Origin: Mycobacterium sp. DL592
Lineage (GTDB): Bacteria > Actinomycetota > Actinomycetes > Mycobacteriales > Mycobacteriaceae
Length of the DNA stretch: 64,000 nucleotides
Assembly: GCF_011694515.1 (NCBI RefSeq)
Contig: NZ_CP050192.1
Coordinates: forward strand, 1,449,534-1,513,533
Direction of reading: 5' to 3'
A model generated the notes under the pieces. It worked only from the letters and a program-made list of their open reading frames with translations. It did no database searches and was not told the origin of the DNA. Shown here in pieces: positions 13,055 through 50,415 of the stretch (position 1 is the first letter of the stretch; each line of letters starts with the position of its first letter). Position numbers and translations under genes: made by a program.

Positions 13055-13071
13055 CGGTATTGGCATTCTCG
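13055..13071 (-). promoter_or_regulatory. CGAGAAT palindrome, copy 1
   Basis: Read on the minus strand it is CGAGAATGCCAATACCG, identical at 15 of 17 positions to the copy before the meta-cleavage operon (17369). It sits in the 115-base divergent promoter of the hydratase and acyl-CoA synthetase. A further GAGAAT half-site is at 13078-13083. Confidence 0.55.
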
Positions 13072-13152
13072 GCTTCGGAGAATAGCATCGCCAGCGGCCC
13101 CGAGGCGCAGGCAGGGTTGGCGACCAGCCGCGTGCGCGAAGAGAAGAGTCAG

Positions 13153-14697
13153 ATGCGAAACATCCCGGTTGAGCTCAGGAAACACTACGAGGAACAGGGC
13201 TGGTGGACCCAGGAAACGCTCGGCGAAACGCTGGCGCGAGGGTTGGCGGCCAGTCCTGATACCGGATTCTGCGTGCATTCCGAGGTCCGCCCGTTCACCG
13301 GAACCTTCGGCGACGTCGAGGGGATGGCCCGGCGGCTGGCCGCGGGCCTGCGGGCGCGCGGGGTGGGCCCAGGCGATGTGATCGCCTTCCAACTGCCCAA
13401 CTGGGTCGAGGCCGCGGCGACGTTCTGGGCCTCGGCGTTCCTGGGGGCGGTGGTCGTGCCGATCGTGCACTTCTACGGCCGCAAGGAGCTGAGCTACATC
13501 CTCGAGACCGCCAAGCCGACGGTGTTCATCACCGCGGAGCGCTTCCGGCACATGGAGTTTGCGCCCGACCTGTGCGCCGACGTGCCGATCGTGGGACTCG
13601 TCGGCGCCGGGTTCGACGACCTGCTGGCCGAGCAACCGATGATCGGGGAACTGCACACCGATCCCGCCGCGCCGGCACTCATCGCGTTCACCTCCGGCAC
13701 CACCCGCGATCCCAAGGGGGTGATCCACAGCCATCAGACGCTGAGCTTCGAGACGCGCCAGCTGCTGGCCAACTACGCCTCCGGTCGCGGCCGCCAGATC
13801 ACCGCCACCCCGGTGGGCCACTTCATCGGAATGGTCGGTGCCTTCCTCATCCCGGTGATCGAGGGCGCGCCCGTCGACCTCTGCGACGTCTTCGATCCCG
13901 GCCGCGTTCTGGAACTGATGGAACGCGAGGGTATGTCGATGGGCGGCGGGCCACCGTACTTCGTCACCAGCCTGCTCGACCATCCGGACTTCACCGACGC
14001 GCATCTGAGCCGGATCACCAATGTCGGCCTCGGCGGGTCCACGGTGCCCGTCACCGTCACCCGCCGGCTCGCCGATCTGGGCATCCATGTGTTCCGGTCC
14101 TACGGCAGCACCGAGCATCCGTCCATCACCGGATCCGAACAGGACGCCCCCGAGGACAAGCGACTGCTCACCGACGGCAACGTCCGCCCCGGGGTGGAGA
14201 TCCGGTTGACCGAGGAGGGCGAGATCCTCTCTCGCGGGCCGGATCTGTGCTTGGGCTATACCGATGACGAGCTCACCGCGAAGGCGTTCGACGACGAGGG
14301 CTGGTATCACACCGGCGACATCGGCATCCTGGACTCCGACGGCTATCTGACGATCACCGACCGCAAGGCGGACTTCATCATTCGCGGCGGTGAGAACATC
14401 AGCGCCCTGGAGGTCGAAGAGGTGCTGCTGACCATGCCCGCGGTGGCCGAGGCGGTCGTGGTGGCCGCCCCAGAACCCCGGCTCGGCGAGCATGCCGCTG
14501 CCGTGGTGCGGATCCGGGAGGGCCACACCATGCCCACCCTGCAAGAGGTGCGCGCCCATTTCGAGAACGCCGGTGCCGCGCGCCAGAAATGGCCGGAGGA
14601 GCTCTACCAGGTCGACGACTACCCGCGCACTGCGAGCGGCAAGGTGCAGAAGTACTTGGTGCGCAAGGCTATTGCCGAGGGGTGCAAGTCAAGTTGA
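13153..14697 (+). CDS. Acyl-CoA synthetase (AMP-forming, FadD type)
   Basis: 514 aa from ATG 13153 (MRNIPVELRK); the long open frame upstream to 12325 is antisense to the hydratase and not used. ANL-superfamily motifs in order: FTSGTTRDPKGV (P-loop), YGSTEHPS, YHTGDIG, the hinge DRKADFIIRGGENIS and the catalytic Lys region PRTASGKVQK. It activates a carboxylic acid to its CoA thioester; the substrate is unknown, though the divergent hydratase and neighbouring flavoprotein suggest a steroid- or aryl-acid-type compound. It ends at a strong bidirectional hairpin. Confidence 0.92.
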   Translation: MRNIPVELRKHYEEQGWWTQETLGETLARGLAASPDTGFCVHSEVRPFTGTFGDVEGMARRLAAGLRARGVGPGDVIAFQLPNWVEAAATFWASAFLGAVVVPIVHFYGRKELSYILETAKPTVFITAERFRHMEFAPDLCADVPIVGLVGAGFDDLLAEQPMIGELHTDPAAPALIAFTSGTTRDPKGVIHSHQTLSFETRQLLANYASGRGRQITATPVGHFIGMVGAFLIPVIEGAPVDLCDVFDPGRVLELMEREGMSMGGGPPYFVTSLLDHPDFTDAHLSRITNVGLGGSTVPVTVTRRLADLGIHVFRSYGSTEHPSITGSEQDAPEDKRLLTDGNVRPGVEIRLTEEGEILSRGPDLCLGYTDDELTAKAFDDEGWYHTGDIGILDSDGYLTITDRKADFIIRGGENISALEVEEVLLTMPAVAEAVVVAAPEPRLGEHAAAVVRIREGHTMPTLQEVRAHFENAGAARQKWPEELYQVDDYPRTASGKVQKYLVRKAIAEGCKSS

Positions 14698-14747
14698 GAC
14701 CGCACTGAGGGCGAAGATCCGGACGTATAGCCGCTCTCAGTGCGGTG
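14698..14747. terminator. Bidirectional terminator hairpin
   Basis: ACCGCACTGAG (14699-14709) pairs perfectly with CTCAGTGCGGT (14736-14746), loop 26 bases. It separates the convergent acyl-CoA synthetase (stop 14697) and the flavoprotein (stop at 14748). Confidence 0.75.
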
Positions 14748-16533: not shown

Positions 16534-17235
16534 TTAACTGAGAATCGCCGACAGCCGTTGCGCCGCGACGACGACGGCGTCCTTGCCGCGGCGCACGACA
16601 TCCTCACGGTGGGAGATGAGGTTGATGCAGGCGTGCGGCGAGGTCGGCGGCCGGTGCACAGGCACCGCGAGGCCGTAGGTGTTGGGTTCGATCTCGCCGT
16701 GGGTGATCACCCAGCCCTGTGCGCGGGTCTTTGTCACCAGTCCGCGTTCGCCGGGCTGGGGCGGCATGGCCGCGAGCAGTGCGATACCGGCCGCGCCGCG
16801 ATCGAGTGGGTAGCGGCTGCCCTCGTGAAAGGAGAGCTGGTAGGACACGTGGGTCGGCACGATCACCGCGATCGCGACCTGTTGGTCACCTTCGGCCACC
16901 AGCAGCGAGACGGTGCTGCCGAGCTCGTCGGCGAGCTGTCGCAGGATCGGCAGGCTCAGTTCACGGACGTTGTTGTCGAACGTCGCGCCGAGTGCGGCCA
17001 GGCCCGCGGCCACCCGGAACCGCCCGTCCTCGGACTTGGCGACCAGCCGATAGGAGGCCAGCGTGCTCAGCAGCCGGTAGGCGATGGTGCGGTGCACGCC
17101 GATGCTGTCGGCGACCTGCTGGATGGTCAAGCCGTCGCGTGAGCCCGCGACCAGCTGCAGAGCATTGAGCCCGCGGGCCAGTGTCTGTGACCCCGGTGCC
17201 GCGGCTGCGGGCCGGTCGATCTTCATCTGCGTCAT
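16534..17235 (-). CDS. IclR-family transcriptional regulator
   Basis: 233 aa from ATG 17235 (GGAG upstream); the frame stays open to 17355 without a good start. N-terminal winged HTH about residues 15-75 (LTIQQVADSIGVHRTIAYRLLSTL), C-terminal effector domain with the VTKTRAQGWVITHGEIEPN segment. IclR proteins control aromatic and steroid catabolism in actinobacteria. It lies between a KstD-like gene (same strand, downstream) and the divergent meta-cleavage operon, so it is a good candidate regulator of both. Confidence 0.9.
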   Translation of the reverse strand: MTQMKIDRPAAAAPGSQTLARGLNALQLVAGSRDGLTIQQVADSIGVHRTIAYRLLSTLASYRLVAKSEDGRFRVAAGLAALGATFDNNVRELSLPILRQLADELGSTVSLLVAEGDQQVAIAVIVPTHVSYQLSFHEGSRYPLDRGAAGIALLAAMPPQPGERGLVTKTRAQGWVITHGEIEPNTYGLAVPVHRPPTSPHACINLISHREDVVRRGKDAVVVAAQRLSAILS

Positions 17236-17368: not shown

Positions 17369-17385
17369 CGAGAATGCCATTATCG
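17369..17385 (+). promoter_or_regulatory. CGAGAAT palindrome, copy 2
   Basis: CGAGAATGCCATTATCG, extended to GCGAGAAT-GCC-ATTATCGC (one mismatch between arms). It ends 20 bases before the first gene of the eight-gene catabolic operon, a position where a repressor would block transcription. Confidence 0.6.
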
Positions 17386-17405
17386 CAGAAGACAGGGGCA
17401 AGTGA

Positions 17406-18269
17406 GTGTCGGAGTTCGAGAGCGTCTGGAGCGATCTGCAGGGCGTCGTGTTCTCGCAGGGCTATCTGGACGTCGGCGGGGTGCGCACCCGCTACTTGCA
17501 CGCCGGTGACCACGACAAACCTGTACTGGTGCTGCTGCACGGGTCCGGCGGGCACGCCGAGGCCTACGTGCGTAACCTCGAAGCCCACGCCGAGCACTTC
17601 TCCACCTGGTCGATCGACATGCTGGGGCACGGCTACACCGACAAGCCGGGTCATCCGCTGGAGATCCCGCACTACGTCGGTCACCTGGCCGACTTCCTCG
17701 ACGCCATCGGTGCGCCGCGCGCACACGTCTCGGGGGAATCGCTGGGCGGATGGGTGGCCTCCCGGTTCGCCGTCGACCATCCCGGCCGAGTGGACCGGCT
17801 GGTGCTCAACACCGCGGGCGGGTCGCAGGCCGACCCCGAGGTGATGAAACGAATCATCACCTTGTCGATGGCGGCCGCGGAGAACCCGAGCTGGGAGACG
17901 GTGCAGGCCCGGATCAAGTGGCTGATGGCCGACAAGTCCAAGGATTACGCCGACATCGTCGCCAGCCGCCAGCGCGTCTACCGCCAGCCCGGCTTCGTCG
18001 GCGCGATGCGCGACATCATGGCACTGCAGGATCCCGAGATCCGGCAGCGCAACCTGATCCGGCCGCAGGACTACGGTGCGATCACCGCGCCCACCCTGGT
18101 GCTGTGGACCAGTGACGACCCCACCGCCGACGTCACCGAGGGCAGGCGGATCTCGGAGATGATCCCGGGCGCGCGGTTCGAGGTGATGCAGGGCTGCGGC
18201 CACTGGCCGCAGTACGAGGATCCCAAGACCTTCGACCGTCTGCACATCGACTTCCTGCTGGGGCGGTGA
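17406..18269 (+). CDS. mhpC: Alpha/beta hydrolase, MhpC-like C-C bond hydrolase
   Basis: 287 aa, GTG start. Alpha/beta-hydrolase motifs: oxyanion [10 protein letters not shown], nucleophile elbow GESLGGW (Ser), acid in [10 protein letters not shown] and His in GCGHWPQYE. MhpC-type enzymes cleave the ring-fission dienone produced by an extradiol dioxygenase. First gene of the operon, followed with a 4-base GTGA overlap by an MhpA-like hydroxylase and then an MhpB-like dioxygenase, which makes the meta-cleavage role likely. Substrate side chain unknown. Confidence 0.85.
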
Positions 18270-19987
18270 CGGTGGCCGCATCTGTCAACGGCAGCGCAAC
18301 GGCGCGCGACGACGTCGATACCGACGTCGATGTAGCCATCGTCGGTGCCGGGCCGGTGGGCCTGACCCTGGCGAATTCGCTTGGATTGCAAGGGGTCCGG
18401 ACTCTGATCGTCGACGAGCGCGATGCCCTCATCGACTACCCGCGCGGAGTCGGTCTCGACGACGAGGCGCTGCGGACGTTCCAGGGGATCGGCCTGGTCG
18501 ATGCGGTGCTGCCGCACACCGTGCCCAACCAGATCCTGCGGTTCTTCGACGGCAAGCGGCGGCTGCTGGCCGAGATGGCTCCGCCCGATGCGCGGTTCGG
18601 CTGGCCCAAGCGCAACGGTTTCGTGCAGCCGCTTGTCGATGCCGAACTGCTCAAGGGTCTCAACCGGTTCGACAACGTCGAGGTGGCGTGGGCCCATCCG
18701 ATGACCTCCATCACCGAGTCGGCCGACGCCGTCACCGTCGAGCTGGCGCCGAACACCGGGGTGCGCCGGGTCCGGGCCCGCTACGTCGTGGGGTGCGACG
18801 GCGGGCGCAGCGCGACACGGCGTCTGATGGGTGTGTCGTTCGACGGCACGACATCCTCGACGCGGTGGCTGGTGGTCGACGTCGCCAACGACCCGCTGGG
18901 CCATCCCAACAGCGAGGTCGGCGCCGATCCGGCCCGGCCGTACGTGTCGATCTCGATCGCCCACGGTATCCGGCGTTTCGAATTCATGATCCACGCCGAC
19001 GAATCCGACGAACTGGCCGAGGACCCGGAGTTCGTCGCCCGGATGCTGGGCACGCTGATCCCGTATCCGGACCGCGCCGACATCATCCGCAGGCGGGTCT
19101 ACACCCATCACTCCCGCATCGCCGGCTCGTTCCGCAAGGGGCGGATGCTGATCGCCGGGGACGCCGCCCACCTGATGCCGGTCTGGCAGGGCCAGGGCTA
19201 CAACAGCGGCATCCGCGACGCCGGCAACCTCGGCTGGAAGCTTGCCGCGGTGGTCAAGGGCCAAGCGCGAGAAGAGCTGCTGGACTCCTACGACGTCGAG
19301 CGCCGCAAGCACGCCCGGGCGATGATCGATCTGTCCACCACGGTGGGCAAGGTGATCTCGCCGACCAATCGCCGGATCGCAGGACTTCGGGACGTCGTGA
19401 TCCGGGGTACCTCGCTGGTGCCGACCCTCAAACGGTACGTGCTCGAGATGCGGTTCAAGCCGATGCCGTACTACGCCCAAGGGGCGGTGGTCCACAACGA
19501 TCCGCCGTCCCCAGGTGTGGGCACGTTGTTCATCCAGCCCAGGGTGGACACCCGCGACCGACGCGACGTGCTGCTGGACGACGTGATCGGACCGTGGTTC
19601 GCCGTGCTGTGCTGGAACAACAATCCGCGAAAGATACTGGGCGACAGCGCCTTCGACGCCTGGAAGTCGCTCGGCGCGGTCTTCGTCGCGCTGCGCCCGC
19701 AGACCCAGCTGTCCTGGCCCGACCAGGACGATCCCGACATCGTCGTGGTCGGTGACCGCACCGGCGCGCTGAAGGCCTGGTTCGATGCCCGCCCGGAGTC
19801 GGTCATGTTCCTGCGGCCCGATCGCTGTATCGCCGGTGCCTGCATCGCCCAGCGCGCACCCGAGCTGAGCGCGGCCCTTCTCGACACACTCACCCTGACC
19901 CCGGGAGGCAACGATGGCACTGGCCCTCTGCTGCATGTCGCACAGCCCACTGCTGAACGTGCCCGGCCCGTCGGCGGAACTGCTTGA
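18266..19987 (+). CDS. mhpA: MhpA-like FAD-dependent aromatic hydroxylase
   Basis: 573 aa, GTG start overlapping the previous stop. Class A flavin monooxygenase: [14 protein letters not shown] (FAD/NADH fold), [10 protein letters not shown] (DG motif) and [18 protein letters not shown] (second FAD motif). It resembles 3-(3-hydroxyphenyl)propionate hydroxylase, which makes a 2,3-dihydroxyphenyl acid for extradiol cleavage. The last 24 codons overlap the start of the next gene by 74 bases; the tail there ([13 protein letters not shown]) looks like read-through rather than conserved sequence. Confidence 0.88.
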
Positions 19988-20864
19988 GGATGTGGAGAGC
20001 GCACTGAGCATCGCACGCGACTTCGCCCGCGAGTACGACCCCGAACTGGTCGTCATCTTCTCGCCGGACCACTACAACGGCTTCTTCTACAAGTTGATGC
20101 CGCCGTTCTGCATCGGCACCGCCGCAACCGGTGTCGGCGACTACGGTACCCAGAGCGGCCCGCTGGACGTCCCTGCAGCACTGGCCACCGAGCTGGCCGA
20201 GCACGTCTTGGATGCGGGTGTCGACGTGGCGATCTCGGCGGGTATGGAAGTCGATCACGGCACCGTGCAGCCGCTGGAGAAACTGTTCGGCGATGCCACC
20301 GCGGTGCCGGTCATCCCGATCTTCATCAACTCCGTCGCCACCCCGCTGGGCCCGCTGCACCGGGCCGCGGCCCTGGGTGCCGCGGTCGGAACGTTCCTGG
20401 CCGGACTGGACCAGCGGGTGCTCGTGGTGGGATCCGGTGGGCTGTCCCATGATCCGCCGGTACCGACGCTGAAGAGCGCGCCGCCGGCCGCGCTGGAACG
20501 CATCGTCCACGGAGCACCCATGACACCCGAACAGCGCCGGGCCCGCCAGGACGCGGTTGCCGCGGCAGCCCGGGAGTTCGCCGCCGGTGCGGGCGGGTGC
20601 CAGCCGCTCAACCCCGACTGGGACCGCTCGTTCCTGGACCTGATGGACACCGGCCGGTTCGCCGCACTCGAGGGATGGACCAACTCCTGGATCGCCGGTG
20701 AGGCAGGCAATTCCGCGCACGAGGTACGGACCTGGGTGGCCGCGTTCGCCGCGCTCGCCGCGCAGGGGCCCTATCGGACGGTCCACCACTACTACCGTGC
20801 CGCCCCCGAGCTGATCGCCGGGTTCGCCATGCGCACCGCGCTGCCGGCCGGGGCCTTCCGGTGA
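19914..20864 (+). CDS. mhpB: MhpB-like 2,3-dihydroxyphenylpropionate 1,2-dioxygenase
   Basis: 316 aa. Type II (LigB-fold) extradiol dioxygenase. The expected His residues are present at positions 10 (CCMSHSPLL), 53 (PDHYNG), 115 (EVDHGTV) and 179 (GLSHDPP); 115 and 179 coincide with the catalytic acid/base His numbers reported for E. coli MhpB. It opens the catechol ring next to a hydroxyl (meta-cleavage) and needs Fe(II). It overlaps the hydroxylase by 74 bases and the following flavoprotein by 4. Confidence 0.92.
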
Positions 20865-22618
20865 GCCCCGAGGTGTTCGACACCACGGTCGACGTGCTCG
20901 TGGTGGGTTCCGGCGGTGGCGGCATGACCGCCGCGCTGACCGCGCACGCCGCCGGACTGGACACGCTGGTCGTCGAAAAGGCCGGCCACTTCGGCGGTTC
21001 CACCGCCCTGTCCGGTGGCGGCATCTGGGTGCCGGGCGCCCCGTCGCAGAAACGTGAGGGCTACGCCCCAGACCCCGACGATGTCAAGCGCTACCTCGCC
21101 CAGATCACCGACGGCCTCGTCAGCGACGAGCGCATCGCCGCCTATGTCGACAATGCGCCGCTGATGATGGAGTTCCTGGAAAACATCAGCAGCTGGCTGG
21201 AATTCGTGTGGAAGCCCGGATACGCCGACTACTACCCGGAGGTGTCCGGCGGGTCGGAGCTCGGCAGCACCATCAACGTTCCGCCGATCGACCTGCGCTC
21301 CCTCGGCGAGGACGAGGAGAACCTGCTCAAGCCGCTGGCCCTGGCACCCAAGGGAATCTGGCTGGGCCCCAAGGATCTGCGGCTGTTCTACCAGGTGCGC
21401 CAGAACTGGCGTGGCAAGGTCGTCCTGCTCAAGCTGTTGTGGCGAAAGTTCCGCGCACATGCGTTCGGGGAGCGGATCGCCGCCATCGGGCAGTCACTGT
21501 CGGCCCGGCTGAGGCTGGCCATGAGGGAACAGGGCATCCCGCTGTGGCTGGACGCGCCGATGACCGAGCTGATCATCGACGTCGACGGCACCGTCGTGGG
21601 CGCGGTCATCGAACAGCACGGCAGCGCGCGGCGCATCGGCGCCCGACGCGGAGTCATCCTGGCCGCGGGCGGCTTCGACCACGACATGGCCTGGCGCCGT
21701 GAGTATCTTCCCGAACTGGAACACGACTGGAGCTTCGGCAACCCGGTGGCCACCGGTGACGGCATCCGTGCCGCGGAGAAGGTCGGTGCCTCCACCGATC
21801 TGCTCGACGAGGCGTGGTGGTTCCCGGCAATGTGCTGGCCCGGCGGGCGGCTGCAATTCATGCTCAACGAGCGGATGATGCCGTCGCAGTTCGTCGTCAA
21901 CGGCGCCGGGAAACGGTTCATCAACGAGGCCGCCCCCTACATGGACTTCGCGCACGCCATGATCGGCGGCCAGCGTTCGGGTGTCAGCCACATCCCGTGC
22001 TGGCTGATCACCGACACCCGGTCGTTCCATCGCTACGTCGTGGCGGGGCACCTGCCGCTGCCCAAGATCCCCGGCGCACCCGTGCCGACCGGTCGCAAGG
22101 TGCCGCAGGAATGGCTGGACTCCGGCGTCGTGCGATCGGCGGGAACACTGGACGAACTGGCCGTCGAGATCGGTGTGCCACCCGGTGAATTGCGGCGTAC
22201 CGCAGAGCGTTTCAACGAGCTGGCACGCAGCGGTCACGACGACGACTTCAACCGCGGCGACAGCGCCTACGACAACTACTACGGCGACCCGACGTTGCCC
22301 AACCCGAACCTGTACCCGTTGACGACGCCGCCGTATCTGGCCTTCCAGATCATCCTCGGCGATCTGGGCACCTCGGGAGGCCTGCGCACCGACGAACACG
22401 CCCGTGTGCTGCGAGCCGACGACACCGTCATCGACGGCCTCTACGCGGTGGGCAACAACTCGGCCGCGGTGATGGGCCGCAGCTACGCCGGTGCCGGCGC
22501 CACCATCGGGCCGGCAATGACATTCGGTTACATCGCGGCCAAGCACATCGCCGGCCGTCAGCACAGTTCCACTGACCAGCAACAGGATTCAACGCATCTC
22601 ATCGGAGGTAATTCATGA
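20861..22618 (+). CDS. KstD-like FAD-dependent dehydrogenase
   Basis: 585 aa, GTG start in a GTGA overlap. FAD fold [20 protein letters not shown] at the N-terminus; [15 protein letters not shown]-terminal [19 protein letters not shown] with the Tyr/Gly active-site loop of 3-ketosteroid delta-1-dehydrogenases. It may desaturate a cyclic ketone before ring opening, or reduce an enoic bond. This is the second such flavoprotein in the window (see 14748) but they are clearly diverged. Its last bases contain the strong GGAGGTAATTC Shine-Dalgarno of the next gene. Confidence 0.87.
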
Positions 22619-23931
22619 AGATCTCGCTGTTCTACGAGTTCCCGCTGCCGCGGCCGTGGGGGCAGGACGACGAGCACCAGCTGTTCCAGGACGGCCTGAC
22701 CGAGGTGGAGGCCGCCGACAAGGCCGGCTTCTCGACGGTGTGGCTCACCGAGCACCACTTCCTCGAGGAGTACTGCCACTCCAGTGCCCCCGAGATGTTC
22801 CTGGCCGCGGCCAGTCAGCGCACAAAGAATATCCGGCTGGGCTTCGGTGTGATGCACCTGCCGCCGCCGATCAACCACCCGGCGCGGATCGCCGAGCGGG
22901 TCTCGACCCTGGACCACCTGTCCAACGGGCGCGTGGAGTTCGGCACCGGCGAGGGTTCCTCGGTGGCCGAGCTGGGTGGGTTCAACATCGACCCCGCCGA
23001 CAAGCGCACGATGTGGGAGGAGGCCCTGGAGGTCTCGATCCGCTGTATGACCGAGGATCCGTTCACCGGGTTCAAGGGCCAGCACGTCGAGATGCCGGCC
23101 CGCAACGTCATCCCGCACCCGCTGCAGAAGCCGCACCCGCCGGTATGGGTGGCCTGCACCCGGCCGTCCTCGGTGAACATGGCGGCCGAAAAAGCCATCG
23201 GTGCACTGAGTTTCGCCTACACCGGCCCCGGCCCGCTCAAGGACCGGGTGGACACCTACTACAAGGACTTCGAGGAGAAGGGCTCGCCGGTCACCCCGGC
23301 GATCAACCCCAACATCCTGGCCATCGGTGGCGACCTGTCGATGATGGTGGCCCGCACCGACGACGAGGCCGTCAAGCGGCTCGGCGTGGGCGGCGGCTTC
23401 TTCTCGTTCGGCATCATGCACTACTACCTGACCGGTATGCACACCCCCGGCCGGACCAAGGTGTGGGAGCTCTACCAGGAGGCCGTCAAGGAGGATCCGA
23501 CCCTGGCCTACGGTCCCGGTCGCGGCGCGATCGGCTCACCGGAGACCGTGCGGCAGTTCCTGCGCGACTACGAGGCCAGCGGCGTCGACGAAATCATCCT
23601 GCTGCTCAATCCGCGGGCCCACGAGGGCATCATGGAGTCGATCGAGATCATGGGCAAAGAGATTCTGCCCGAGTTCATCGAACGTGACGAGAAGGCCGTG
23701 GCCGCCAAGGCCAAGCGCCTGGAACCGGTCATCGAGAAGGTGGAGGCCCGCCGCCGCCCGTCGGAGGCGCCGGCGTTCGACGACACCTATGCCTTCGGTG
23801 GTCTGCCCACCGGGCAGGGCGGCAAGTTCACCGCCAGCGAGATTCCTGAGGCGTGGGCCGAGATCAACGAGGGCCGGGTGCAGGCGGCCCAGGCCGAGAA
23901 GGACGCGCGTGAGCATCAGGCTTCCAGCTGA
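22615..23931 (+). CDS. LLM-class (luciferase-like) flavin-dependent monooxygenase
   Basis: 438 aa. ATG 22615 with a near-perfect GGAGGTAA Shine-Dalgarno 4 bases ahead, so this gene may be translated more strongly than its neighbours. Bacterial luciferase-like TIM barrel: WLTEHHFLEEY, RLGFGVMHLPPP, RVEFGTGEG and GTPSTV-like region PETVRQFLRDY. Such enzymes use reduced FMN or F420 to oxidise aldehydes, ketones or alkanes; in mycobacteria F420 use is common. A C-terminal extension of about 60 residues (RLEPVIEKVEARRR onward) is longer than usual. Confidence 0.87.
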   Translation: MKISLFYEFPLPRPWGQDDEHQLFQDGLTEVEAADKAGFSTVWLTEHHFLEEYCHSSAPEMFLAAASQRTKNIRLGFGVMHLPPPINHPARIAERVSTLDHLSNGRVEFGTGEGSSVAELGGFNIDPADKRTMWEEALEVSIRCMTEDPFTGFKGQHVEMPARNVIPHPLQKPHPPVWVACTRPSSVNMAAEKAIGALSFAYTGPGPLKDRVDTYYKDFEEKGSPVTPAINPNILAIGGDLSMMVARTDDEAVKRLGVGGGFFSFGIMHYYLTGMHTPGRTKVWELYQEAVKEDPTLAYGPGRGAIGSPETVRQFLRDYEASGVDEIILLLNPRAHEGIMESIEIMGKEILPEFIERDEKAVAAKAKRLEPVIEKVEARRRPSEAPAFDDTYAFGGLPTGQGGKFTASEIPEAWAEINEGRVQAAQAEKDAREHQASS

Positions 23932-23943
23932 GCGGTCCGGTCG

Positions 23944-24762
23944 TTGACCGGCCTGGCGCAGCTGCAGCGCTACGACGGCCGCAGGGTCGCCGTGACCGGG
24001 TGTGCCTCCGGCATCGGGGCGGCGCTGTGCGACCAGCTCGCTGAACTCGGCGCCCACGTCGTCGGCCTGGACCTGCGGAGTCCCGGGGATACCGGCGGGG
24101 TGCGGGATTTCGTCGAGCTGAACCTCGCCGAGCCGGACTCGATCGAGCGGGCCGCCGATGCGGTCGGCGGGCAGATCGATTCGGTGTTCAACGTCGCGGG
24201 GGTGTCGTCGGGGATCGGCGACCCGCTGCGGGTGGTCACCGTCAACTTCCTCGGCACCCGGATGTTCACCGAGGCGGTACTGCCCCGACTGGGTTCCGGC
24301 GGCTCGGTCGTTTGCGTGTCCTCGCTGGCCGCGTCCGGCTACCGTGAGCATCTGCCGCAGGCGGCAGGCCTCCTGGCGACGGCCTCGATGGCCGACGGCA
24401 TCGCGTGGTGTGCGGATCATCCCGAGGCGCTGGCCGACGGCGGCTACCGGCTGTCGAAGGAGGCGATCATCGGTTACGCAATTCGCAGCGCAGTACCGCT
24501 GGGAGCCAGAGGAATTCGGATCAACTGCAGCGCGCCGGGCGTCACCGAAACGCCCATCCTCGACCAGCTGCGGTCCGCCTACGGCCAGGACTACCTCGAC
24601 ACGTTCCCCAATCCGCTGGGGCGAGTGTCGAATCCGGCCGAGCAAGCCGCGGTCCTGGCATTCCTGGGCAGTCCCGCCGCGGGATACATCACCGGGCAGG
24701 TCCTCTGGGCCGACGGTGGCATTCTCGCGGCGCGTCATGCAGTCGATTACGAGAAGGGGTGA
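23944..24762 (+). CDS. Short-chain dehydrogenase/reductase (SDR)
   Basis: 272 aa, apparent TTG start at 23944, 12 bases after the previous stop; no ATG or GTG fits better. NAD-binding GCASGIGAAL (TGxxxGxG), FNVAG, and the active site Ser (VCVSSLAASG) with a YRLSKEA (YxxxK) motif. The segment between Ser and Tyr is about 40 residues, longer than the usual 12-14, as in some 3-alpha-hydroxysteroid dehydrogenases. It probably oxidises a secondary alcohol in the pathway. Overlaps the next gene region by GTGA if the upstream start is used. Confidence 0.87.
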   Translation: MTGLAQLQRYDGRRVAVTGCASGIGAALCDQLAELGAHVVGLDLRSPGDTGGVRDFVELNLAEPDSIERAADAVGGQIDSVFNVAGVSSGIGDPLRVVTVNFLGTRMFTEAVLPRLGSGGSVVCVSSLAASGYREHLPQAAGLLATASMADGIAWCADHPEALADGGYRLSKEAIIGYAIRSAVPLGARGIRINCSAPGVTETPILDQLRSAYGQDYLDTFPNPLGRVSNPAEQAAVLAFLGSPAAGYITGQVLWADGGILAARHAVDYEKG

Positions 24763-24767
24763 GCGCT

Positions 24768-25757
24768 GTGGCCGACATGAGCGATTTCCGGCGGGTCGCC
24801 GACGATGTGCGCAACTGGGGCCGATGGGGTGACGCCGACGAACTCGGCACTCTCAACTTCATTACCGCCGACAAGGTCGCGCAGGCCGCCGCATCGGTTC
24901 AGCACGGAAAGGTGTTCCCGCTTGGGGTCGACTTCGGCTCGTCGGGACCCCAGGGTGCGTTCCAATACCGCCAGAACCCCACTCACGTGATGACGATCGA
25001 CGGCGGCGACGCCGAGACCCTGCTGCGGTACGGTCCCGCCTGGCTGCAGAACCCGTCGGCGGTGCAGCTGAGCAGCTACTCGCAGGCCGGGCCGATGCGG
25101 TTCAACGACGACCTGATCATCATGCCGCTGCAGGCCGCCACGCAGTGGGACGCGCTGTCGCACGTCTACTACGAGGACAAGCTGTACAACGACTTTCCCG
25201 CCGACTCGGTGACCAGCCTGGGCGCCTACTACCTCGGTATCGACAAGGTGGTGAGCAAAGGCATCACCTCGCGCGGGGTGCTGCTAGACATCGTCAAGCT
25301 GCGCGGTGTGCAGACCTTCTGCGAACTCGGCGAGCCGATCACCCCGGCCGAACTCGACGCGGCGGCCCGAACACAAGGTTTGACGGTGGAGCCCGGTGAC
25401 GTCGTTCTGGTCCGAACTGGTTGGTGGGCAAGATTTTTGGAGACCGGTGACGGCGGGGAGCCGGGAGCCGGGCTGGATTGGACCTGCGCGTCGTGGCTGG
25501 CCGATCACCAGGTGGCCGCGGTCGCCGCCGACAATCTCATGGTGGAGAACCCGGTGTCGGGTGTCGACGGTGCCATCCTGCCGATGCACATGCTGTGCCT
25601 GCGGGATATGGGACTGATGCTCGGCGAGTACTGGAACCTCACCGCGCTGGCCGCCGACTGTGCCGCCGACGGGCGCTACGAGTTCCAGCTCGTGGCACCG
25701 CCGCTGTCGGTCACCGGGGCCGTCGGGTCGCCGGTCAACCCCATCGCGATCAAGTGA
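24768..25757 (+). CDS. Cyclase-family metal-dependent hydrolase
   Basis: 329 aa from GTG 24768, with GAGAAGGGG about 8 bases before; GTG 24759 (overlapping the SDR stop) and ATG 24777 are alternatives. The TQWDALSHVYYEDKLYN segment is the metal-binding motif of the long cyclase / kynurenine-formamidase-like family, and VVLVRTGWW is typical too. Members hydrolyse amides, lactones or cyclic C-C bonds. In this operon a ring-opening or lactone-hydrolysis role after oxidation by the LLM enzyme is plausible, but that is inference. Confidence 0.82.
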   Translation: MADMSDFRRVADDVRNWGRWGDADELGTLNFITADKVAQAAASVQHGKVFPLGVDFGSSGPQGAFQYRQNPTHVMTIDGGDAETLLRYGPAWLQNPSAVQLSSYSQAGPMRFNDDLIIMPLQAATQWDALSHVYYEDKLYNDFPADSVTSLGAYYLGIDKVVSKGITSRGVLLDIVKLRGVQTFCELGEPITPAELDAAARTQGLTVEPGDVVLVRTGWWARFLETGDGGEPGAGLDWTCASWLADHQVAAVAADNLMVENPVSGVDGAILPMHMLCLRDMGLMLGEYWNLTALAADCAADGRYEFQLVAPPLSVTGAVGSPVNPIAIK

Positions 25758-26569
25758 GTAGTGCACACCGGACCATCGTCGTCGACGGACTGGCCACGCA
25801 CTTCCTCGAGGCGGGTGAGGGTGATCCCGTGGTGCTGCTGCACGGCGGCGAGTTCGGCGCCAGCGCTGAGATCGGCTGGGAAAGAGTCATTCCGGCACTG
25901 GCCGAACGCTACCGGGTGATCGCCCCGGACATGCTGGGCTTCGGCGGCTCGGCCAAGGTGGTGGACTTCACCGACGGCCGCGGCATGCGGATCCGCCACA
26001 TCGCCCGGCTCTGCGCGCTGCTCGGGATCGACTCGGCCCACTTCGTTGGCAACTCGATGGGGGCGATCAACATGCTCGTCGACCTCACCTCGACCGCGCC
26101 CGTGCTGCCGATCCGCAGCGCCGTGACGATCTGCGGCGGGGGAGACATCCAGAAGAACGCGCACACCACTGCGCTCTACGACTACGACGCCACCCTCGAG
26201 GCCATGCGCGCCATCGTGGCGGCGTTGTTCCTCGATCCCGCCTACCCGGCCGACGACGAGTACGTGCGGCGGCGCTACGAATCCAGCATCGCCCCGGGCG
26301 CCTGGGAGTCGTTGGCGGCGGCCCGCTTTCGCCGGCCCGGGCTCGAGCCACCGTCAACCCCGTCGAGCAGCCGCGCCTACGATCGCATCACCGTGCCGGT
26401 GCTGTTGGTCGAGGGCGCGGGGGACAAGCTGCTCGCACCCGGGTGGGCGGCGCAGATCGCCGGTCGGATCGCCGAGGCCCGCTCGGCGGTTGTCGAGGCC
26501 GCCGGGCATTGCCCGCAGATCGAACAGCCGCAGGCCGTCGCCGAGCTGCTGCTGGAGTTCCTGGCCTGA
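25754..26569 (+). CDS. Alpha/beta hydrolase (second MhpC-like hydrolase)
   Basis: 271 aa from GTG 25754 in a GTGA overlap with the cyclase; the frame is open upstream but inside that gene. Motifs: HGGEFGASAEIGWE (oxyanion), nucleophile GNSMGAIN (Ser), acid in EGAGDKLLAP and AAGHCPQIEQP (His). Similar in type to meta-cleavage product hydrolases and distinct from the first gene of the operon. Last gene; ends 3 bases from the convergent acyltransferase stop. Confidence 0.85.
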   Translation: MSSAHRTIVVDGLATHFLEAGEGDPVVLLHGGEFGASAEIGWERVIPALAERYRVIAPDMLGFGGSAKVVDFTDGRGMRIRHIARLCALLGIDSAHFVGNSMGAINMLVDLTSTAPVLPIRSAVTICGGGDIQKNAHTTALYDYDATLEAMRAIVAALFLDPAYPADDEYVRRRYESSIAPGAWESLAAARFRRPGLEPPSTPSSSRAYDRITVPVLLVEGAGDKLLAPGWAAQIAGRIAEARSAVVEAAGHCPQIEQPQAVAELLLEFLA

Positions 26570-28071: not shown

Positions 28072-28911
28072 TCACTTCAAGCAGCTGCCACCGTCGACGG
28101 GCAGCTGGACACCGGTGATGTAGCGGGCCTCGTCGGAGGCCAGGAACAGCACCGCGTTGGCGACGTCCTCGGGTTCGACCCACCCGATCGGCAGCGTGTG
28201 CATGAACTCGCCGACGACCTTGATGTCGTCCGGGCCCGGGTTCTCCAGATCGGGCCGGAACAGCTTCATGGTGCCGTCGTTCATGAACAGGGGCGTGTTC
28301 ACGTTCGTCGGGTGTACCGAGTTGACCCGGATGTTCTTCGCGCCCAGCTCGACCGCGAACGTCTTCATCAGTCCGACGACCCCGTGCTTGGCGGCGACGT
28401 AGTGGCCGCAGTGCGGGTAGGCCTTGATGCCGCCGACCGAGCTGGTCAGGATGATCGATCCGCCGCGCTCACCGGCGAGGATGTGTGGCACACCGGCTTT
28501 GACCGTCTTCCACACGCCGGCGAGGTTGATGTCGATCATCGCCGTCCAGTCGGTCTCGCTGGTCTGGTCCAGCGTCTGGCCGCCGTTGCCGATGCCGGCG
28601 TTGGCGACGATGATGTCGAGGCGGCCCAGCTGCTCGACACCGCTGTCCACGGCCGCCTTCAGCGCGTCGTAGTCGCGGACGTCGACCTCGGCGGTGACGA
28701 TGCGGCGGTTGTGGCCCTTGACGAGGTCGGCGGTCTCGGCCAGATCCTCCGGTGTGGACGGGGCGATCAGGTCGACGGTGTCGATCTTCTTGCAGATGTC
28801 GACGGCGATGATGTCGGCACCCTCCTGGGCCAGCCGCACCGCGTGAGCGCGGCCCTGCCCACGTGCCGCACCGGTGACGAATGCGACCTTGCCCTCTACC
28901 CGTCCTGCCAT
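28072..28911 (-). CDS. Mycofactocin-coupled SDR family oxidoreductase
   Basis: 279 aa from ATG 28911 (MAGRVEGKVAFVTGAARGQG). TGAARGQGRAHAVRLA nucleotide site, VANAGIG, Ser in LTSSVGG, and YVAAKHG (YxxxK). The beginning and the ADIIAVDIC segment match the carveol-dehydrogenase-like subfamily that keeps its NAD bound and passes electrons to mycofactocin. It follows the P450 gene by 28 bases on the same strand, suggesting that it oxidises the alcohol the P450 makes. Confidence 0.9.
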   Translation of the reverse strand: MAGRVEGKVAFVTGAARGQGRAHAVRLAQEGADIIAVDICKKIDTVDLIAPSTPEDLAETADLVKGHNRRIVTAEVDVRDYDALKAAVDSGVEQLGRLDIIVANAGIGNGGQTLDQTSETDWTAMIDINLAGVWKTVKAGVPHILAGERGGSIILTSSVGGIKAYPHCGHYVAAKHGVVGLMKTFAVELGAKNIRVNSVHPTNVNTPLFMNDGTMKLFRPDLENPGPDDIKVVGEFMHTLPIGWVEPEDVANAVLFLASDEARYITGVQLPVDGGSCLK

Positions 28912-28939
28912 GTTGTCGATCCTCGTGTCGTAGTGGAAA

Positions 28940-30121
28940 TCAGGAAGTGAATGTCGGCATGGCTTCCCAGCCGCGTACGGCGGTGGTCGGCGACTTGACC
29001 GCGTTCGGCCAGTCGACCTCCCAGGAGGGGAAGCGCTTGAGGATTTCCTCCAGGGCGATGCGCCCTTCCATCCGCGCCAGCGCGTTACCCATGCAGAAGT
29101 GAGTTCCGGCGCCAAAGGTCATGTGCGACTTCTGTTCCCGGTGAATGTCGAAGACATCGCCGTCGGGGGCGAAGCGGCGGTGATCGCGGTTGGCGGCACC
29201 GACGAGCATCAGCATCGCCGAGCCGGCAGGCACCGTCTGTCCGTAGTACTCGACGTCGCGGGTGACGTAGCGGGCGATCTGCAGCGCGGGTGGCTCCCAG
29301 CGCAGGATCTCCTCGATCGCCTGCGGGATCAGCGCCGGGTTCTGCGCGAGTTCGCGACGCTGCTCGGGATGCTCGGCCAGCGTCTTTCCGGCCCAGCCGA
29401 TCAGCCGGGTGGTGGTCTCGGCGCCGGCGGTGGCGATCACCGTCAGGTACAGCAGCAGCTCTTCGCGGTGCAGCCGGCGCACCGTGCCCGTCTCGTCTTC
29501 GAACTCGGCGTTGAGCAGATCGGTCATGATGTCGTCCGACGGATGCTCGACCCGGTAGTCGACGAATTCTGCGAACACCTCGCCGGTGGCCAGCAGGTCG
29601 ATCTTCTCCGACTGCAGGGTCGCCTCGCCGTGGTCGGTGATCTGGCGCTGCCGGTCCTCCGGAATGCCCAGCAGCATGCCGATCACCCGCATCGGCATCT
29701 GCTCGCCGAGATCGTTGACGAAGTCGAACCGCCCGGTGCCCACCAGCGGGTCCAGGCACCTGCGGGTGAACCCGCGGATCTGTGGTTCCAGGGCCGCGAC
29801 CTTGCGGGGGGTGAACACCCGGGAGAGCAGGTTGCGGTGGATGTTGTGGATCGGCGGATCCTCGAAAATCAAGGTGCCGGGCGGGATTTCCATACCCGAT
29901 TTGATGATCTCCAGCAGCGCGCCGCGCCCGGAGATGAACGTCTCGTGGTCGATGAGTGCCTTGTTGACGTCGTCGTGGCGGCTGACGGCGTAGAAGTCGT
30001 GCTCCGGGTTGTAGTACAGCGGCGCTTCCTCGCGCAGCCGGGCGAACATCGGATAGGGATCGATGTTGAGCTCGACGTCGTAGGGGTCGTAGTGGAGATC
30101 GCTCTCCGCGCTGACGGTCAC
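28940..30121 (-). CDS. Cytochrome P450
   Basis: 393 aa, GTG start at 30121. I helix TAGAETTTRLIGW, ExxR in EEILRWEPP, haem loop FGAGTHFCMGNALAR. First gene of a two-gene unit with the SDR at 28072. A copy of the CGAGAAT palindrome lies about 55 bases upstream, so it probably belongs to the same regulon as the meta-cleavage operon. Substrate unknown; no ferredoxin is adjacent (the nearest is at 38047). Confidence 0.93.
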   Translation of the reverse strand: MTVSAESDLHYDPYDVELNIDPYPMFARLREEAPLYYNPEHDFYAVSRHDDVNKALIDHETFISGRGALLEIIKSGMEIPPGTLIFEDPPIHNIHRNLLSRVFTPRKVAALEPQIRGFTRRCLDPLVGTGRFDFVNDLGEQMPMRVIGMLLGIPEDRQRQITDHGEATLQSEKIDLLATGEVFAEFVDYRVEHPSDDIMTDLLNAEFEDETGTVRRLHREELLLYLTVIATAGAETTTRLIGWAGKTLAEHPEQRRELAQNPALIPQAIEEILRWEPPALQIARYVTRDVEYYGQTVPAGSAMLMLVGAANRDHRRFAPDGDVFDIHREQKSHMTFGAGTHFCMGNALARMEGRIALEEILKRFPSWEVDWPNAVKSPTTAVRGWEAMPTFTS

Positions 30122-30174: not shown

Positions 30175-30191
30175 AGAGAATTAGGTTCTCT
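30175..30191 (+). promoter_or_regulatory. CGAGAAT palindrome, copy 3
   Basis: AGAGAATTAGGTTCTCT: arms GAGAAT/GTTCTC with a 3-base spacer, extended by one more pair. It lies in the 150-base divergent region between the P450 (30121, minus) and the sugar kinase (30272, plus). Confidence 0.6.
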
Positions 30192-35429: not shown

Positions 35430-35452
35430 ACTGATAATCAATGGTTATCAGT
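35430..35452. promoter_or_regulatory. Perfect 8-bp inverted repeat, LysR-type operator or hairpin
   Basis: ACTGATAA-TCAATGG-TTATCAGT. The inner ATAA-N7-TTAT has the T-N11-A form bound by LysR-type regulators. It overlaps the LysR stop (35448) and lies about 90 bases before the permease start, so it could be the operator for the permease operon, a terminator of lysR, or both. Confidence 0.5.
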
Positions 35453-47408: not shown

Positions 47409-47417
47409 GGCGGCCAA

Positions 47418-47433
47418 CTTACTGGTTTGTAAG
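47418..47433. promoter_or_regulatory. Inverted repeat upstream of the NTF2-TetR unit
   Basis: CTTAC-TGGTTT-GTAAG, perfect 5-base arms, 10 bases before the NTF2-like start. Probable operator for the coupled TetR. Confidence 0.45.
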
Positions 47434-47488
47434 AAAATGCGCAACGGTGCGAGAGCGGAAGAGGGAACGTATTGCCTTGGCGCGGTTG

Positions 47489-47505
47489 TGAGAATATGAT
47501 TCTCG
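47489..47505 (+). promoter_or_regulatory. CGAGAAT palindrome, copy 4 (best palindrome)
   Basis: TGAGAATATGATTCTCG: perfect GAGAAT/ATTCTC arms with a 3-base spacer, 22 bases before the amidohydrolase ATG and shared with the divergent NTF2-TetR unit. Confidence 0.65.
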
Positions 47506-47527
47506 CTAACTGCATAAGGAGGATTTC

Positions 47528-48718
47528 ATGGGTCAGCTGTCGCACCGGGTCGACGTCCCGTTTCCGATTTTCGACGCGGACAATCACCTGTACGAGCCGC
47601 CGGAGGCGCTGACGAAGTACCTGCCCAAGGAGTACAAGGACTTCGTCCAGTACGTACAGGTGAACGGCCGCACCAAGATCGCGCTGCGCGGCCAGATCAG
47701 CAACTACATCCCCAACCCGACCTTCGAGGTCGTCGCCCGCCCGGGCGCCTGGGAGGAGTACTTCAAGTACGGCAACCCCGACGGCAAGACCAAGCGGGAG
47801 CTCTTCGGTGAGCCGATGCGTGCGATCCCGGCGTTCTTCGAGCCCGGCCCGCGCCTGGAGGTGATGAACGAGCTGGGGCTGGACCGCACGCTGATGTTCC
47901 CGACCCTGGCCAGCCTGATCGAGGAGCGGCTGCGCGACGATCCGGTCGCCATCCACGTCCTGGTCCACTCGCTCAACCAGTGGCTCGACGAGGTGTGGGG
48001 CTTCAACTACCAGAACCGCATCTTCACCACTCCGGTGATCACCCTGCCCATCGTGGAGAAGGCGATCGAGGAGCTGGAGTGGGCGGTCAAACGTGGCGCC
48101 CGCTGCATCCTGGTGCGCCCGGCGCCGGTGCCCGGCTTCCGCGGCCCGCGGTCCTTCGCGCTGCCGGAGTTTGATCCGTTCTGGGAGCGGGTCGTGGAGT
48201 ACGACCTGCTGGTCGGCATGCACTCCAGTGACAGCGGCTACTCGCGCTACACCTCCGAATGGGACGGTGCCAGCGCCGAGATGCTGCCGTTCCAGACCAA
48301 CGCGATGGGCATCCTCAACGAGTGGCGCCCGATCCAGGACTCGGTGGGCTCCTGGGTAATCCACGGTGCGCTGTACCGCCACCCGAAGCTGAAGGTCGCG
48401 ATTGTCGAGGCCGGCTCGAAGTGGATGACCCCGCTGCTCGACGGCCTGGCCGAGGTCTTCCGCAAGGCCCCCGAAGCCTTCCCGAGCGACCCGGTCGAGA
48501 TGGTCAAGAGCCGCATCCACGTCAGCCCGTTCTTCGAGGACGGCATCGACGATCTGGTGAACCTGGTCGGTGTCGAGCAGGTGCTCTACGGTTCGGACTG
48601 GCCGCACCCCGAAGGCCTGGCCGAGCCCACCTACTACGTCGAGGCGCTCTCGCACCTCAAGGCCGAGGACCAGGCCAAGATCATGGGCGGCAACCTGAGC
48701 CGCCTCATCACGGTGTGA
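47528..48718 (+). CDS. Amidohydrolase-family (ACMSD-like) hydrolase
   Basis: 396 aa, ATG 47528 with AAGGAGGA 6 bases ahead, one of the strongest Shine-Dalgarno sites in the window. Metal site FDADNHLYEPP; late active-site LYGSDWPHPEG. Same family as 39523. Probably decarboxylates or hydrolyses a ring-cleavage acid in a steroid-like pathway. Overlaps the acyl-CoA synthetase by 4 bases (GTGA), so the two work together. Confidence 0.88.
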   Translation: MGQLSHRVDVPFPIFDADNHLYEPPEALTKYLPKEYKDFVQYVQVNGRTKIALRGQISNYIPNPTFEVVARPGAWEEYFKYGNPDGKTKRELFGEPMRAIPAFFEPGPRLEVMNELGLDRTLMFPTLASLIEERLRDDPVAIHVLVHSLNQWLDEVWGFNYQNRIFTTPVITLPIVEKAIEELEWAVKRGARCILVRPAPVPGFRGPRSFALPEFDPFWERVVEYDLLVGMHSSDSGYSRYTSEWDGASAEMLPFQTNAMGILNEWRPIQDSVGSWVIHGALYRHPKLKVAIVEAGSKWMTPLLDGLAEVFRKAPEAFPSDPVEMVKSRIHVSPFFEDGIDDLVNLVGVEQVLYGSDWPHPEGLAEPTYYVEALSHLKAEDQAKIMGGNLSRLITV

Positions 48719-50163
48719 CCTTCTCGGATCAGCATCCGCGGACCATCCCCGAGATGGTCGCCAGCGCAGCGGACCGGTTCGGCGACAGTGAAGCTGTCGT
48801 CGACGGTCCGCTGCGTCTTACGTTCGCCGAGGTCGCCCACCGGGTCCGGTGCGCGGCAGGCGCATTCGCCAACGCCGGTGTCGACAAGGGCGACCGCGTC
48901 GCGATCTGGGCACCCAACTCGGCGCACTGGATGATCGCCGCGTTCGGCGCCCTCACCGCGGGGGCCGTCGTGGTTCCGGTGAGCACCCGGTACAAGACCG
49001 CCGAGGCCGCCGACATCATCACCCGCAGCGGCGCCAAGGTCGTCCTCGTCGAGAAGGGTTTCCTGGAGCAGGAATTCACCGCGCCGCCGGGTGTACCCAC
49101 CTTTGATCTGACCTCGGGATTCCTCGAGGACGGCGCGCCGGTGCAGCGGGCCGTCCGCGGCACTGACATCGCCGACATCATCTACACCTCCGGGACCACG
49201 GGGCGGCCCAAGGGCGTGATGATGAACCACCAGCAGAACCTGCGGATGTACTCCGAATGGTGCGACCTGGCCGACCTGCGCCGCGGCGACCGCTACCTGA
49301 TCGTCAACCCGTTCTTCCACACCTTCGGCTACAAGGCGGGCTGCCTGGCGTCGTTCATCCGGGGCGCGACCATGCTCCCGGTTGCGGTCTTCGACATCGA
49401 CCGGGTGGTCGAACTCATTGCCGCCGAACGCATCACGATGCTGCCCGGCCCGCCGACGCTGTACCACTCCCTGCTCGCGGTCGAGGACAAGAGCAAGCTG
49501 GCCACCCTGCGCGCCGGCGTCACCGGTGCGGCCGACATCCCAGTCGAACTCATCCGCCGAGTCCACGAGGAGCTTCCGTTCCAGACGCTGGCCACCGGCT
49601 ACGGTCTGACCGAGGCCGGAACGGCGACGATGTCGCGGCCCGGTGACTCGTTCGACGACATCGCCACCACCGCGGGCCTGCCCGTCGCCGACGTCGAGGT
49701 GCGGCTGGCGCACGACGCCGAGGTGCTGGTGCGCGGATACAGCGTGATGCAGGGCTACTTCGACGACCCGGCGGCCACCGCCGAGGCTATCGACAGCGAG
49801 GGCTGGCTGCACACCGGCGATCTGGGGTGCTTCACCGACAGCGGGCGGCTGCGCATCGTCGGCCGCAAGAAGGACATGTTCATCGTCGGCGGCTTCAACG
49901 CTTACCCCGCCGAGATCGAGGGCTTCCTGATGGAACACCCGGCGGTCGCGCAGGCGGCGGTCATCGGTGTGCCCGACGAGCGTCTGGGGCAGGTCGGCAA
50001 GGCGTTCGTCGTGCCCAAACGCGGTGCGGACGTGTCGGCGGACGGCCTCATCTCCTGGAGCCGCGACCGGATGGCCGGGTTCAAGGTGCCCAGGACGGTT
50101 GAGTTTCTGGAGGCTCTTCCGCTCAATGCGACCGGCAAGGTTATGAAAGACCACCTGCGCTGA
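48715..50163 (+). CDS. FadD3-like acyl-CoA synthetase
   Basis: 482 aa from GTG 48715. ANL motifs: IIYTSGTTGRPKGV, NPFFHTFGYKAG, ATGYGLTEAGT, LHTGDLG, GRKKDMFIVGGFNAYPAEIEG and LNATGKVMK (catalytic Lys). The overall sequence recalls FadD3, the mycobacterial ligase that adds CoA to the steroid C/D-ring propionate (HIP); the NPFFHxFGYKAG segment is shared. Co-translated with the amidohydrolase. Substrate assignment is inference. Confidence 0.88.
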   Translation: MTFSDQHPRTIPEMVASAADRFGDSEAVVDGPLRLTFAEVAHRVRCAAGAFANAGVDKGDRVAIWAPNSAHWMIAAFGALTAGAVVVPVSTRYKTAEAADIITRSGAKVVLVEKGFLEQEFTAPPGVPTFDLTSGFLEDGAPVQRAVRGTDIADIIYTSGTTGRPKGVMMNHQQNLRMYSEWCDLADLRRGDRYLIVNPFFHTFGYKAGCLASFIRGATMLPVAVFDIDRVVELIAAERITMLPGPPTLYHSLLAVEDKSKLATLRAGVTGAADIPVELIRRVHEELPFQTLATGYGLTEAGTATMSRPGDSFDDIATTAGLPVADVEVRLAHDAEVLVRGYSVMQGYFDDPAATAEAIDSEGWLHTGDLGCFTDSGRLRIVGRKKDMFIVGGFNAYPAEIEGFLMEHPAVAQAAVIGVPDERLGQVGKAFVVPKRGADVSADGLISWSRDRMAGFKVPRTVEFLEALPLNATGKVMKDHLR

Positions 50164-50415
50164 GGCCATGAAAGCCCTGTTCTCCCACGTCGCGGTGCTT
50201 GTGGCTGACCACCCTGGTATAGCATGATTTCCGCCCAGTGATAATGTCATTCTCGCACTTGGTGCGGTACTCGCGCCAGCGCCGGTCTCGGCCGCCTCGT
50301 CGCTCTCGCGGCGGATCGCCGACAATGAGCGGCGGTCGGCGGCCAGCGCTCAGCGAGCGCCCGTACGCTGGCTGGATGCTTGGTCCAGGGAGGAGTTCGG
50401 ACATGTGTAGGTGGT
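50164..50415. other. 252-base intergenic region with a CGAGAAT site
   Basis: No gene is seen. It contains the palindrome copy at 50239-50255 and otherwise GC-rich sequence (CGCCTCGTCGCTCTCGCGGC and similar) with no recognisable RNA. It should hold the promoter of the two Mce-associated genes. Confidence 0.5.
50239..50255 (-). promoter_or_regulatory. CGAGAAT palindrome, copy 5
   Basis: On the minus strand CGAGAATGACATTATCA, identical at 15 of 17 positions to copy 2 (17369). The nearest downstream gene is the Mce-associated membrane gene at 50416, 160 bases away. Confidence 0.55.

Follow-up and report, generated by a model that had tools for sequence, protein, structure and literature searches.

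TetR-controlled catabolic regulons are known as a kind, and those of KstR and KstR2 are the closest described counterparts of the system considered here. The KstR site reads AGAAC-N2-GTTCT. A different palindrome, GAGAAY-N3-RTTCTC, recurs in a 64,000-nucleotide stretch of the genome of Mycobacterium sp. DL592 (contig NZ_CP050192.1, positions 1,449,534 to 1,513,533; the whole stretch is called the window below), and very probably it serves as operator for TetR-A, an uncharacterised repressor of the TetR family that is predicted from sequence to control a catabolic cluster. Both letters and spacing set it apart from the KstR site: the half-sites differ and the spacer is 3 bases long, so that, as a preliminary description of the window had maintained, this is not a KstR-type site.

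The resemblance to the KstR regulon is one of kind, namely TetR-family control of lipid and steroid catabolism through a strongly conserved palindrome, of 14 bp in that case (PMC3068626, PMC3388012). A comparative study centred on M. tuberculosis is reported to have found no motif more conserved than that of KstR (PMC3388012). For KstR2, the published description gives AnCAAGnnCTTGnT, a 14-bp motif with a 2-base spacer, at three promoter regions (PMC3068626). It has several features in common with the present system: a TetR-family repressor, a palindrome in the repressor's own promoter, divergent catabolic promoters and actinomycete-wide conservation. In contrast, the sites described here read GAGAAY-N3-RTTCTC, typically number 8-10 exact copies per genome, spread over about 100 kb plus one distant site, and accompany different genes; no window site is of the KstR/KstR2 operator type, a 14-bp palindrome with a 2-base spacer. 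Several marks of a KstR2-like TetR regulon are present locally: a TetR_N domain in a TetR fold, an own-promoter palindrome conserved among orthologues (80/80 loci) and further putative operators, likewise conserved in orthologues, at the promoters of linked genes. Searches of the open-access literature by motif letters and gene sets found no description of the motif or of TetR-A, and the TetR-A regulon is filed here as a further, new one of its kind.

Five copies of a 17-bp sequence, at 13055, 17369, 30175, 47489 and 50239, had been put forward in the preliminary description. All five are present, copies 1 and 5 are each identical to copy 2 at 15/17 positions, copies 3 and 4 form nearly perfect palindromes around a 3-base spacer, and every copy is intergenic and upstream of a start by our own gene calls. 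The degenerate (IUPAC) pattern originally drawn from them is indeed enriched, with 19 window matches at up to three mismatches on both strands against 4.67 expected, a number reached in 0/100 shuffles. That said, the informative core is better defined as GAGAAY-N3-RTTCTC, the sequence shared by the strong copies and here called the type-A operator. Scored against this core, 30175 and 47489 are exact, 17369 and 50239 carry one mismatch, and 13055 carries three; the last is treated below as a separate element, U.

The core is equally distinctive on the scale of the 5.10-Mb genome. Exact matches occur at just 8 places (166021, 1402646, 1409380, 1414346, 1416045, 1421937, 1479709 and 1497023, the last two corresponding to window positions 30176 and 47490), of which seven are clustered within the 95 kb from 1.402 to 1.497 Mb (binomial P ~6e-12). 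Five of them lie left of the window, so the sites continue beyond its left edge, while the distant one, 166021, sits between a phosphotransferase-family gene and a CoA-transferase III gene. Allowing one mismatch, 31 places (8 exact) were found genome-wide, against 1 for a letter-reversed control. Of the 143 kb that surround and include the window, 92% is coding by our own caller; the 11.6 kb of intergenic DNA there contains 7 exact and 13 exact-or-one-mismatch matches, where a first-order Markov model of the same DNA gave means of 0.0 (exact) and 0.08 (up to one mismatch) and a maximum of 1 in 400 runs. The possibility that the motif is as common in coding or random intergenic DNA as upstream of these genes was thus checked: exact sites are intergenic and exceed the Markov expectation. 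The sites are confirmed as real and above chance, and as such they point to a regulon.

The best candidate for its regulator lies outside the window. The genome is a single record with a 100-N scaffold gap (1449434-1449533) just left of the window, between it and the TetR-A gene, which makes the distance of about 34 kb a nominal one. In six other genomes (G018, G004, G136, G099, G132 and G034; working numbers are used throughout) TetR-A and the meta-cleavage hydrolase are found on one contig, ~24-77 kb apart. The centre of the exact site 1416045 lies 80 bp upstream of the TetR-A gene, and this arrangement is the rule elsewhere. Among the best 80 of 385 relatives found in named genomes, a set that leans to close relatives and in which one Nocardia, one Aldersonia and one bin labelled Acidobacteria accompany the mycobacteria, all 80 loci read have an exact own-promoter site 34-145 bp upstream of where the TetR-A match begins. 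These loci total 1.49 Mb and are 91% coding, yet 229/229 exact sites in them are intergenic by our own caller; the letter-reversed pattern gave no exact match there and one with one mismatch. Seven genomes (G016, G022, G069, G073, G086, G101 and G130) carry two full-length TetR-A copies, with 9-10 exact sites per genome.

The TetR_N domain PF00440 is annotated in TetR-A and in those of its homologues that were listed, and the recognition-helix region FTVQEVVDRS[RK]QSLRSFYLQF is identical in the 21 TetR-A rows aligned. A sequence search of solved structures with TetR-A returned distant TetR proteins only, and a search of a plasmid collection returned no match at E<=1e-30. The predicted structure is of middling quality (mean pLDDT, the predicted local distance difference test score, 81.8; pTM, the predicted template modelling score, 0.75), and its fold resembles EthR2, YvdT, acyl-CoA-bound FadR and KstR2 among TetR structures. 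The match to TetR repressors including acyl-CoA-bound FadR and KstR2 recalls the acyl-CoA-responsive FadR proteins of Bacillus and Thermus, though identity is low, 13-21% in the rows listed, and EthR2 and YvdT rank higher. How the operator sits relative to promoter elements is less clear-cut: 275 of 426 oriented type-A contexts show a promoter-like pair, and in 183 of the 426 the operator or its border contains the first base of a -10-like hexamer, but both counts are biased by an AT-rich operator in GC-rich DNA and are only suggestive.

Computation across the genus shows the sites and TetR-A occurring together. In a sample of 148 genomes (TetR-A cut-off E<=1e-40), counts compiled by hand from search outputs, with genomes absent from the TetR-A match list taken as negatives, place TetR-A in 122/148 and at least one exact site in 129/148. 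Carriers have a median of 9 exact sites (range 0-13), with four or more in 118/122; the 26 non-carriers have a median of 0 and a maximum of 2. Reversed-control matches number 19 over all 148 genomes.

Placement of the sites is just as regular when the cluster regions of five further genomes are compared with our own (783 kb in all), with 45/46 exact sites intergenic. Recurrent neighbours of the sites are TetR-A itself; a ferredoxin-like/acyl-CoA synthetase-like pair, so labelled from sequence reading; an SDR gene opposite a MeaB-type GTPase gene, which in some relatives is replaced by a different one; a CMD-family/Rieske operon opposite one of the amidohydrolase family; and an acyl-CoA dehydrogenase pair. 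In G000, G136 and G004 the site of this last pair departs from the core by one mismatch; in G099, G132 and G034 it is exact. Also recurrent are the window's amidohydrolase-FadD pair, the P450-SDR pair and the meta-cleavage operon. Two adjacent MspA-family porin genes lie left of the cluster (genome 1396655-1398096), and no counterpart of a LysR-family gene at window 35448-36329 turned up in the other five cluster regions.

The sites are also conserved in orthologous promoters. Site 17369 is exact in 19 of 30, has one mismatch in 9 and two in 2, and its GATAAT half is found in close relatives too. Relatives of the P450 and SDR genes in other genomes have sites alongside, and in many a P450 or SDR of the window pair's kind, with an exact site of its own, adjoins TetR-A. 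In four other cluster regions (G136, G004, G099 and G034) the amidohydrolase start has an exact site centred 28-30 bp upstream; in the stretch of the fifth, G132, this gene was not found. The proposal of an operator common to the meta-cleavage operon, the P450-SDR pair and the amidohydrolase-FadD pair is supported. Membership of the Mce-associated (Mam) genes is supported more weakly: site 50239 is a one-letter variant kept mainly in close relatives, with a match at up to one mismatch to a consensus in 9/10 of the closest Mam orthologues (own included) and 2/20 of more distant ones.

We infer that a TetR-A dimer would bind the palindromes at these promoters, repressing the gene that encodes it together with some ten promoter regions, mainly between divergent genes, of a catabolic cluster of ~100 kb, and that it would be released when a pathway intermediate binds, most likely a coenzyme A (CoA) thioester. 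In the window the predicted targets are the P450-SDR pair (from 30175), the amidohydrolase-FadD pair (47489) and the meta-cleavage operon (17369), with the Mce-associated genes (50239) as less certain ones. Ligand-released repression is suggested by the usual behaviour of TetR repressors, by the operator at the regulator's own promoter and by the divergent layout. That the ligand may be a CoA thioester is a guess from the likeness of the predicted structure and the many acyl-CoA enzymes. The gene set, which includes Rieske and P450 oxygenases, paired acyl-CoA dehydrogenases, a B12-dependent-mutase-like pair, meta-cleavage enzymes and Mce-associated proteins, suggests that the substrate of the cluster is a ring-bearing compound.

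Several points weigh against this account. Four TetR-A carriers (G026, G056, G063 and G089) have only 0-2 exact sites, so in some lineages the regulon has shrunk or the operator changed, and one of the 46 exact sites in the six cluster regions falls inside a gene (in G132). TetR-A and its targets are inherited together, so the profile taken by itself could point to another regulator in the cluster; one such is TetR 37367, a TetR gene within the window of which relatives occur in each of the six cluster regions. The presumed role of TetR-A as repressor rather than activator is taken from its family, and its binding to the operator and its regulation of the cluster are computational predictions.

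The genome encodes a second TetR protein, TetR-B. It is 33-35% identical to TetR-A, has a similar recognition-helix region, and is present in 108/148 genomes. Sites beside its gene, GGTAAYGNCRTTACC and hybrids, have the same geometry as type-A, and in 30/30 loci read a related site, within one mismatch of either the hybrid or the full palindrome, lies near one end of the TetR-B gene. The palindrome GGTAAYGNCRTTACC is found in 102/108 TetR-B carriers versus 4/40 non-carriers. Shared geometry and related half-sites in a paralogue support the pairing of this protein family with this motif. TetR-A sites do not need TetR-B, however, since 13 of the 16 genomes with TetR-A but without TetR-B have 8-10 sites, and the remaining three belong to the site-poor carriers. 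It is a speculative and on the whole unlikely extension that most species of the genus have a further KstR-like regulon for a ring-bearing substrate together with cross-talk between TetR-A (half-site GAGAAY) and TetR-B (GGTAAY) at hybrid sites made of one half of each, possibly through heterodimers.

Paralogues sharing half-sites could also mean that TetR-B, acting through hybrid sites, is the regulator of element U and of the one-letter variants at 17369 and 50239. The sequence GGTAATGTCATTCTC upstream of the TetR-B gene shares the ATTCTC half, in at least 18 genomes relatives of the window's Mam gene are 5-12 kb away from TetR-B, and U is one mismatch from the hybrid consensus. Against this, 17369 is an exact type-A palindrome in 19/30 relatives, and the spacers of 17369 and 50239 depart from the hybrid consensus in most close relatives, which leaves control by TetR-B improbable and TetR-A the favoured regulator of 17369.

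The block at 13055 is best read, from its sequence and distribution, as a separate conserved promoter element that is shared with a B12-dependent-mutase-like operon. Its 15-mer, GGTATTGGCATTCTC, has 12 exact copies in the 783 kb of the six cluster regions. The promoter of a methylmalonyl-CoA-mutase-like gene (TIGR00641) accounts for 7 of them and the hydratase/acyl-CoA synthetase promoter for the other 5; our own caller put one copy (G034) within a gene, and flanking-gene matches place it between genes. The reversed control gave 0 matches at up to two mismatches in these regions, and U itself gave none at up to one mismatch in 1.87 Mb of other loci. In the window TTGGCA would form the -35 region and the hexamer TAGCAT, 17 bp further on, the -10 region of a promoter directed at the acyl-CoA synthetase gene on the plus strand, and TANNNT follows TTGGCA by exactly 17 bp in 11/12 copies; U is read here as a core promoter under an extra constraint. 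The acyl-CoA synthetase-like gene is similar by BLASTP to one at genome 1402987. Either of the TetR genes at 11200 and 37367 could serve element U or its neighbours. A paper on isobutylene deals with plasmid-borne genes (PMC13188929).

All five window sites, 13055 included, had been assigned in the preliminary description to one regulator and one motif class. The case for including 13055 lies in its 15/17 identity with 17369 and its retained ATTCTC half, but it has three mismatches to the core, and its 15-mer is invariant in 12 copies, as a -35 block, at just two promoter types, whereas type-A spacers vary widely; a single regulon of all five is for these reasons improbable. A 'type B' class of 17369, 50239 and 13055 was tried and dropped, orthologous promoters making 17369 type-A and 13055 a separate element.

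As for the regulator, the expectation of one TetR- or IclR-type protein held for the TetR type, TetR-A being the best candidate, and failed for the two proteins named, IclR 16534 and TetR 46411. IclR has some circumstance in its favor as the protein that binds the palindrome and regulates the cluster. It is conserved in 116/148 genomes and never found without TetR-A among the 148, it adjoins the meta-cleavage hydrolase in 30/30 loci examined, sharing the intergenic region with site 17369, and the four site-poor TetR-A carriers also lack it. Yet the site it shares with the operon is its only one, and IclR is absent from all 80 TetR-A loci, which extend up to 10 kb to each side and contain the 229 exact sites. 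Nor are sites restricted to IclR carriers, for G137 and G139, without it at E<=1e-50, keep 9 and 4 exact sites. IclR was accordingly rejected, and its chance of being the regulator is very small. Scarcely any credence goes to TetR 46411 or TetR 37367 in this role: the former is downstream of a gene whose promoter region contains exact site 47489 but was rejected as present in 4/148 genomes, far fewer than the 129 with an exact site, and the latter, a minor rival in whose favor a P450 gene of G136 and G004 has an exact site in common with an SDR gene resembling the one that precedes TetR 37367 in the window, has no exact or one-mismatch intergenic site within 3 kb in G000, G099, G132 or G034, whereas TetR-A has an exact site of its own in every locus read. 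Relatives of TetR 11200 occur in 5/6 cluster regions (own included).

Coordinates are collected in Table 1. Gene starts come from a simple caller of our own, which dropped the overlapping dioxygenase gene. No Pfam family was matched by the first two proteins of the 50416..53306 group. Further right, window 56248-60180 encodes a protein of 1310 amino acids with HAD, trehalose-phosphatase and GH65 domains.

Table 1. Sites and genes discussed in the text, in window positions unless marked as genome positions; operator assignments are predictions.
Feature	Position	Strand	Remarks
Site 17369, type-A operator	17369..17385	+	One-letter variant (GATAAT half); between IclR gene and meta-cleavage operon
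Site 30175, type-A operator	30175..30191	+	Exact core; between P450-SDR pair (minus) and FGGY-family kinase gene (plus)
Site 47489, type-A operator	47489..47505	+	Exact core; upstream of amidohydrolase-FadD pair
Site 50239, type-A-like operator	50239..50255	+	One-letter variant (GATAAT half); upstream of two Mce-associated (Mam-like) genes
Copy 1, element U	13055..13071	+	Separate element; 15-mer on plus strand at 13056-13070
TetR-A	genome 1415315-1415971	-	Uncharacterised TetR-family gene
TetR-B	genome 2816063-2816689		Second TetR
Meta-cleavage operon	17406..26569	+	HsaD-like hydrolase, MhpA-like hydroxylase, LigB-type dioxygenase, KSTD-like dehydrogenase; further LLM oxidoreductase, SDR, cyclase-family and alpha/beta-hydrolase genes
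LigB-type dioxygenase gene	19914-20864	+	Overlaps end of MhpA-like gene
P450-SDR pair	28072..30121	-	P450 28940-30121, SDR 28072-28911
Amidohydrolase-family gene and AMP-binding enzyme (FadD-like)	47528..50163	+	
Two Mce-associated-like membrane proteins and AMP-binding enzyme	50416..53306	+	Mam label from the preliminary description
Enoyl-CoA hydratase-like gene	12321..13037	-	Divergent from acyl-CoA synthetase gene
Acyl-CoA synthetase-like gene	13273..14697	+	Downstream of U; true start may be further upstream; name from the preliminary description and sequence reading
IclR-family regulator (IclR 16534)	16534..17235	-	Candidate of the preliminary description
TetR 46411	46411-46953	-	Candidate of the preliminary description; downstream of small gene 46977-47408
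TetR 11200	11200-11889		TetR gene
TetR 37367	37367-38041		TetR gene

All told, an uncharacterised regulator with a defined operator would tie together orphan catabolic operons in most of the species sampled in the genus, and promoter element U can now be told apart from the type-A motif that it resembles. The pair of TetR-A and TetR-B appears suited to studying how the half-site specificity of TetR proteins diverges. Deleting TetR-A and following the effect by RNA sequencing, or screening TetR-A for its ligand, could reveal the compound that this cluster degrades.

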